The notes under the pieces: generated by a model
What the model saw: the letters and a program-made list of their open reading frames with translations, nothing else
What the model was told of the DNA's origin: nothing
Databases searched by the model: none
From: Alphaproteobacteria bacterium casp-alpha6
GTDB lineage: Bacteria; Pseudomonadota; Alphaproteobacteria; Rhodobacterales; Rhodobacteraceae
Length of the DNA: 64,000 nt
Direction: 5' to 3'
NCBI GenBank assembly: GCA_001510135.1
Contig: LFER01000009.1
Coordinates: 37,806-101,805, forward strand
Made by a program: the position numbers and the translations under genes
Shown: one piece after another, positions 1,276 through 1,692 of the stretch
Layout of the letters: every line of letters begins with the position of its first letter
Position numbering within the stretch: the first letter of the stretch is position 1

Positions 1276-1290
1276 GTTCTATATTTGTTC
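1276..1290 (+). promoter_or_regulatory. LexA (SOS) box, alphaproteobacterial type
   Basis: The sequence reads GTTC-TATATTT-GTTC, an exact match to the direct-repeat GTTC-N7-GTTC motif bound by alphaproteobacterial LexA. It lies 28 bases before the ATG of the OB-fold gene at 1318, where a repressor would cover the promoter. A further GAAC at 1300-1303 adds an inverted half-site. The ferredoxin start is about 110 bases away on the other side, so that gene is a less likely target. Confidence 0.75.
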
Positions 1291-1317
1291 TCAATTTATG
1301 AACATAACATCCCATCT

Positions 1318-1692
1318 ATGATGCCTCAAAGATATCCCTATCCCCCAAGCGCCTGCCCTGCAGAACGCCTTCACTACGTTCCCGAGGGAACACGGATCAC
1401 TGTTGCGGGACTTGTCATTTTACGGCAGCGCCCAGGCACGGCAAAGGGCGTGGTTTTTATCACGCTGGAAGATGAAACCGGCATTGTGAATGTGATTGTC
1501 TGGCGCAATTTGTTCGAACAGTTTCGCCGTGCAGTGATTTCAGGTCGGCTGCTGCGTATCACAGGCCGCCTACAACGTGGATCGGGTGTGACACATGTGC
1601 TCGCCGAAAAGATTGAAGATATATCTGCCCTTTTGGATCAACTGACTCAACCCAGACAAGGAACAATTGTCAGCGGGGCGAATTACGAGTAG
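1318..1692 (+). CDS. Stand-alone DnaE2/ImuC-type C-terminal OB-fold protein (possible dnaE2 remnant)
   Basis: This 124-residue protein matches the end of the error-prone polymerase DnaE2 (ImuC): 'GTRITVAGLVILRQRPGTAK' followed by 'FITLEDETGIVNVIVW' is the hallmark of its C-terminal nucleic-acid-binding OB domain. A full DnaE2 has about 1,000-1,100 residues; no polymerase, PHP or finger domain is encoded upstream, where the ferredoxin runs in the other direction. The frame is intact with two adjacent ATGs (1318, 1321). The SOS box just upstream fits the LexA control of imuA-imuB-dnaE2 cassettes. It is either a deletion remnant that kept its promoter, or a domesticated single-domain DNA-damage protein. 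Family call is firm; function is inference. Confidence 0.8.
   Translation: MMPQRYPYPPSACPAERLHYVPEGTRITVAGLVILRQRPGTAKGVVFITLEDETGIVNVIVWRNLFEQFRRAVISGRLLRITGRLQRGSGVTHVLAEKIEDISALLDQLTQPRQGTIVSGANYE

Follow-up and report, generated by a model that had tools for sequence, protein, structure and literature searches.

We propose that the DnaE2 polymerase of a large lineage of marine Rhodobacteraceae underwent an old fission and that a separate, SOS-controlled gene now supplies its C-terminal OB domain in trans, a reading to which we assign a probability of about 80%. DnaE2 drives damage-induced mutagenesis in many bacteria, and the direct repeat GTTC-N7-GTTC is the LexA box of alphaproteobacteria. 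At the sequence level, we document the fission itself, a matching breakpoint, co-occurrence of the two genes, boxes on both of them, a single origin, and purifying selection. The features on which the argument draws lie near the start of the 64-kb stretch of DNA that was analysed (the window):

842..1165, minus strand: divergent 2Fe-2S ferredoxin gene (fdx), a conserved neighbor of the relocated OB gene outside the proposed mechanism, which adjoins OB in nearly all stand-alone loci
1257..1262, plus strand: predicted -35 position from the promoter logo, a weak match CTTGTT where relatives have cTgGac, with 17 bp between it and the -10
1276..1290, plus strand: LexA-type box GTTCTATATTTGTTC, a perfect GTTC-N7-GTTC with 27 nt between it and the OB ATG at 1318
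1280..1285, plus strand: predicted -10 element TATATT, which falls within the spacer of the box, from a 122-sequence logo anchored on the box; putative promoter
1318..1692, plus strand: stand-alone OB-domain gene, the C-terminal piece of a split DnaE2 (124 codons plus stop), identified by profile matches and orthologues
2309..3781, minus strand: DegP/Do-like serine protease gene that flanks OB on its other side as a conserved marker of synteny

The OB frame starts at ATG 1318 or 1321, is open throughout, and stops at 1690-1692. A sequence-only reading of this DNA had described a perfect box ahead of an intact 124-codon frame whose product corresponds to the C-terminal OB of DnaE2 alone, with no polymerase domain upstream, and all of this is borne out: the box at 1276-1290 is followed by 27 nt and then ATG 1318, the 1047-position NCBIfam DnaE2 model NF004225 matches the product only at positions 943-1040 (E 3.5e-33), and no polymerase domain lies upstream of the frame within the 64-kb window. 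Profile searches place the domain with the DnaE2 type (E 3.5e-33 for NF004225 versus 2e-7 for DnaE1 models), and the product also matches the Pfam OB fold PF01336 (E 2.9e-13). AlphaFold2, run on a 63-sequence alignment, gave a confident OB barrel (mean pLDDT 89), and sequence and fold searches of the PDB with the product returned "OB fold" only, with no close relative. Like SSB and RPA, to which it is weakly similar by profile and fold search, the protein is a stand-alone OB fold, but unlike them it has the DnaE2 OB as its best match, and its score against the SSB family PF00436 (19.4 bits) falls below the cut-off of 26.

Two further small features surround the gene. A 7-codon minicistron (ATG AAC ATA ACA TCC CAT CTA TGA; 1298-1321) lies downstream of the box, and the OB ATG at 1318 overlaps its stop, making translational coupling possible in the genus of the window. 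Between OB and degP, positions 1722-2210 encode a putative peptidoglycan-binding-domain protein that stands beside OB in many, not all, relatives; degP itself adjoins OB also in the distant relatives L200 and L201.

The polymerase that this domain would complete is encoded elsewhere in the same genome (an assembly of 2.98 Mb in 68 contigs, 86% complete). We found a 972-aa DnaE2 on contig 43 (G000:C43:5299-8217), with its own LexA-type box 27 bp upstream, which contradicts the earlier suggestion that dnaE2 had been lost and had left only its tail. This protein aligns to positions 5-940 of NF004225 with 1218 bits, above the curated cut-off of 939, and its chain ends ...LSLRAHPVALLRPILTPETPMKSHHSSWLL at the linker before the OB, where fused relatives run through the linker into the OB. 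There is no C-terminal OB in the same chain as this polymerase; the OB is encoded on another contig. The two halves are complementary (5-940 and 943-1040 of 1047) and jointly align to one complete DnaE2. Since the polymerase is present, is missing exactly this domain, and has its own LexA-type box, we interpret the pair as a split DnaE2 and not the OB as an orphan or competitor. As to the earlier question whether a full imuA-imuB-dnaE2 set exists elsewhere in the genome, dnaE2 is there in OB-less form. imuA and imuB do not adjoin the contig 43 gene, and a search of the source assembly, which is 86% complete, turned up no ImuB; it is present in 33/33 other genomes tested, the congener G225 included. 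More broadly, dnaE2 lies away from imuB in most of the split clade, whereas fused dnaE2 follows imuB in an operon.

The same arrangement recurs across the family. OB matches occur in 213 of 249 Rhodobacteraceae genomes, in about 105 of them as a stand-alone gene and in the rest mostly within a full-length DnaE2 frame; the figure of about 105 is a hand count from frames and includes one genome (G173) judged from a 948-aa DnaE2 frame and a weak OB match only. All but two of these stand-alone-OB genomes carry an OB-less DnaE2 or a contig-edge fragment of one, DnaE2 in G061 and G119 being seen as such fragments. An OB-less DnaE2 query finds 62-82% identity in nearly all stand-alone-OB genomes (52-55% in a few that evolve fast), compared with near 60% or near 53% against fused DnaE2s. 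Every one of 17 named relatives tested, among them Ruegeria, Leisingera, Phaeobacter, Shimia, Pelagimonas, Roseivivax, Pseudooceanicola, Oceanicola, and Marimonas, has a split, truncated DnaE2 with a box. Six genomes encode an OB-less DnaE2 and no OB (G044, G064, G099, G143, G163, and G181); in each the assembly either lacks the fdx locus or has a contig end interrupting it toward OB, and we do not count them as genuine losses of OB. Separately, G035 encodes both split halves and, in addition, a fused DnaE2 from the other clade, which adjoins ImuB on a 126-kb plasmid, at a position on contig C4 that matches Dinoroseobacter shibae plasmid NC_009957, and plasmid-borne fused DnaE2 genes occur in several Roseobacter relatives.

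Taken singly, the box in the window is not significant, with 2 GTTC-N7-GTTC sites in the window against 1.97 expected and 69 sites genome-wide against 106 for the reversed pattern. A chance occurrence is rejected because the box, unlike a lone site, is conserved at orthologous loci: 128 of 130 stand-alone OB loci have a perfect box at most 260 bp upstream, where the 130 are the loci with enough upstream sequence and are not independent, many being from Ruegeria. The OB start codon lies 1-5 nt after the end of the box in 108 of these 128, from which the window differs in that its OB ATG is 27 nt past the box. In a logo of 122 promoters, GTTCTATNTTTGTTC, a -10 (TATNTT) falls within the box spacer, at 17 bp from a -35 (cTgGac). 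Bound LexA would hide this -10, and transcription would begin roughly at the ATG, which predicts a leaderless OB mRNA for most relatives. The position of the box between OB and the divergent fdx, about 110 bp from the ferredoxin start, raises the alternative that it belongs to the ferredoxin gene and that OB is not SOS-controlled. We consider this very improbable, since the box ends 1-5 nt before OB in most loci, the -35/-10 pattern is oriented toward OB, and in G195 the box stands before OB even though OB is away from the fdx locus; on spacing, promoter direction, and G195 together, we reject fdx as its owner.

The polymerase half has a corresponding element. Upstream of OB-less dnaE2, mostly at about 30 bp, a box with no more than one mismatch stands in nearly all cases. 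It reads GAAC-N7-GAAC or GAAC-N7-GAAT, the form that this direct repeat takes on the opposite strand; in an in-gene control, no perfect box occurred and 7 of 82 had a box with one mismatch. Fused dnaE2 genes, located behind imuB, have essentially no box. We infer that LexA represses both genes and releases them together, so that the boxes would give joint induction by DNA damage.

Comparison of the OB gene in the window with that of its nearest relative (L034) gave a dN of 0.071, a dS of 1.34, and an omega of 0.053, and the median omega was 0.25 over 5,321 pairs with dS of 0.2-1.2; these Nei-Gojobori values are approximate, many pairs being saturated. All 130 stand-alone OB frames are open. 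From these codon comparisons we conclude that the OB gene is under strong purifying selection. The sequence-only reading had named dN/dS and orthologues of the same architecture as checks on its proposal that OB was kept as a separate gene under selection; with an omega of about 0.05, against neutrality, and about 130 orthologous loci of the same architecture, that part of the proposal stands, but the suggested role as a competitor does not, the protein being one half of a split DnaE2.

Relic tails of the kind once suspected here do exist. In Nitrospirillum (L111) and on Sphingopyxis plasmid pDB-1 (L290), which we rejected as parallel splits, an OB frame sits behind a decayed polymerase end, and such cases lend some plausibility to the view that the gene in the window is likewise a promoter-bearing tail of a deleted dnaE2 that is drifting to loss. 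In those relics, which are useful as negative controls, OB is not preceded by a perfect LexA-type box, whereas the gene in the window is, and it belongs to a clade of 126 genes, has an omega of about 0.05, and has its matching polymerase still in the genome. We saw neither relaxed selection nor a broken frame in the OB gene, and dN/dS, conservation, and the presence of the polymerase leave this explanation a negligible probability.

Phylogenies of both halves point to one event. The OB-less DnaE2s form a single clade (66 sequences with support 0.955; 65 with support 1.0) that is sister to the fused DnaE2s of Rhodobacteraceae, and the stand-alone OBs, 126 in all, likewise group together in one clade (support 0.835). 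G195 is the first branch of the split polymerase clade or its sister lineage; its OB lies downstream of dnaE2 at a distance of about 1 kb, beyond an intervening gene, has its own box and the WPRPP motif described below, and keeps an SRDFH tail. It looks like an intermediate from before OB moved to the fdx-degP locus. We also considered independent fissions in the low-GC relatives G033 and G091, and rejected them because OB has the same purD/degP context there as in the window (fdx is seen too in G033) and both halves fall inside the same clades in the trees.

As to the breakpoint, in 85 OB-less DnaE2s, a variable tail with a median of 19 aa follows the conserved ...LRAHPVALLR end (HP..LLR) of the HhH2 region, and fused relatives continue past that region into the OB plus the tail HPREQAKKLFPSRDFH. 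Stand-alone OBs open with a derived WPRPP segment (W in 89%, P in 91%, R in 83%, P in 95%, and P in 98% of sequences) that is not in fused OBs and that reads YPYPP in the window, and, with the exception of G195, they stop shortly past the OB and lack the SRDFH tail. Six OB-less DnaE2s retain an HPR-containing tail resembling the fused tail (0.96 expected by shuffling), a hint that duplication of the 3' end came first and that loss of one part from each copy followed.

The main alternative accepts that OB derives from a split DnaE2 and holds that it is now a lone, SOS-induced single-strand-binding protein acting independently of the polymerase. OB has its own promoter and its own locus, the derived WPRPP motif is absent from fused OBs, and the gene is intact in two genomes without an intact split polymerase: the near-complete genome G051 (L184), in which the OB gene, box, and ImuB are present and DnaE2 was not found, and G238 (L286/L288/L193), in which the split dnaE2 has decayed into pieces and a fused DnaE2 of another clade accompanies an intact OB and box. 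In these two the OB could have outlived its polymerase through recent loss or because it has a polymerase-independent role. Against independence stand the almost unbroken pairing of OB with OB-less DnaE2 in about 100 genera, the single common origin, and the conservation of the same invariant OB residues in stand-alone OBs and fused DnaE2 OBs; if OB were independent, the polymerase would have had to manage without any OB. We therefore regard independence as unlikely. The divergence of OB and DnaE2 is also strongly correlated (Mantel r of 0.90 in 63 genomes; 0 of 2,000 permutations), which mostly represents shared vertical descent.

In the split, an ancestral DnaE2 became a catalytic gene (PHP, polymerase, and HhH2; 972 aa) and a separate OB gene elsewhere, and both halves would be induced jointly via their LexA boxes upon DNA damage. 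The OB protein most likely docks onto the OB-less DnaE2, with ImuA and ImuB where these are present. DnaE OB domains bind single-stranded template, and the docked OB would provide a template-strand-binding domain in trans, allowing mutagenic lesion bypass by the reassembled DnaE2. The economical reading of these genomic patterns is that, during SOS mutagenesis, OB acts in trans on the polymerase that lacks it. In its resemblance to the one-chain DnaE2 of the ImuA-ImuB-DnaE2 mutasome, the system has two genes that jointly align to one complete DnaE2, both with LexA-type boxes, and ImuB occurs in the congener G225 and in the other split genomes tested; it differs in that the OB of the one-chain enzyme is C-terminal in the same chain, whereas the split OB has a gene, a locus, and a promoter of its own.

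Several DnaE2 sequences without an OB domain have been reported (Timinskas et al., PMC3919608), with the same kind of truncation, as far as the available part of that paper describes it, as the polymerase half here; that part makes no mention of a separate OB gene for them. The terms OB domain and OB-fold are absent from the main text of a 2026 polymerase survey (PMC12926913), and a targeted search found no description of a DnaE2 split in open-access literature. Judging from the portions of these sources available, earlier literature noted only OB-less DnaE2s. The cyanobacterial split DnaE is likewise a C-family polymerase encoded in two pieces (PMC3919608), joined by intein trans-splicing, but no intein is apparent in either DnaE2 half; because the half frames end and begin at the linker, a noncovalent complex is to be expected and not splicing.

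Neither the role of the DnaE2 OB nor mutasome assembly is settled in the open-access literature consulted, and the split lineage is a natural experiment in which OB can be deleted, titrated, or tagged with the polymerase untouched. The split could also explain a point left hanging in earlier work, the DnaE2s that seemingly have no OB. We suggest tentatively, at somewhat less than even odds, that a fixed domain has become a separately controlled subunit, with the OB promoter setting the ratio of OB to polymerase and so tuning DNA grip and mutagenic synthesis, and with WPRPP replacing the covalent link as a docking element; the ratio could be tunable because a LexA box of its own overlies the -10 of OB and a leaderless OB mRNA is predicted in most relatives. 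In these Rhodobacteraceae, a polymerase domain has turned into a separate gene with an SOS-type switch kept on both pieces.
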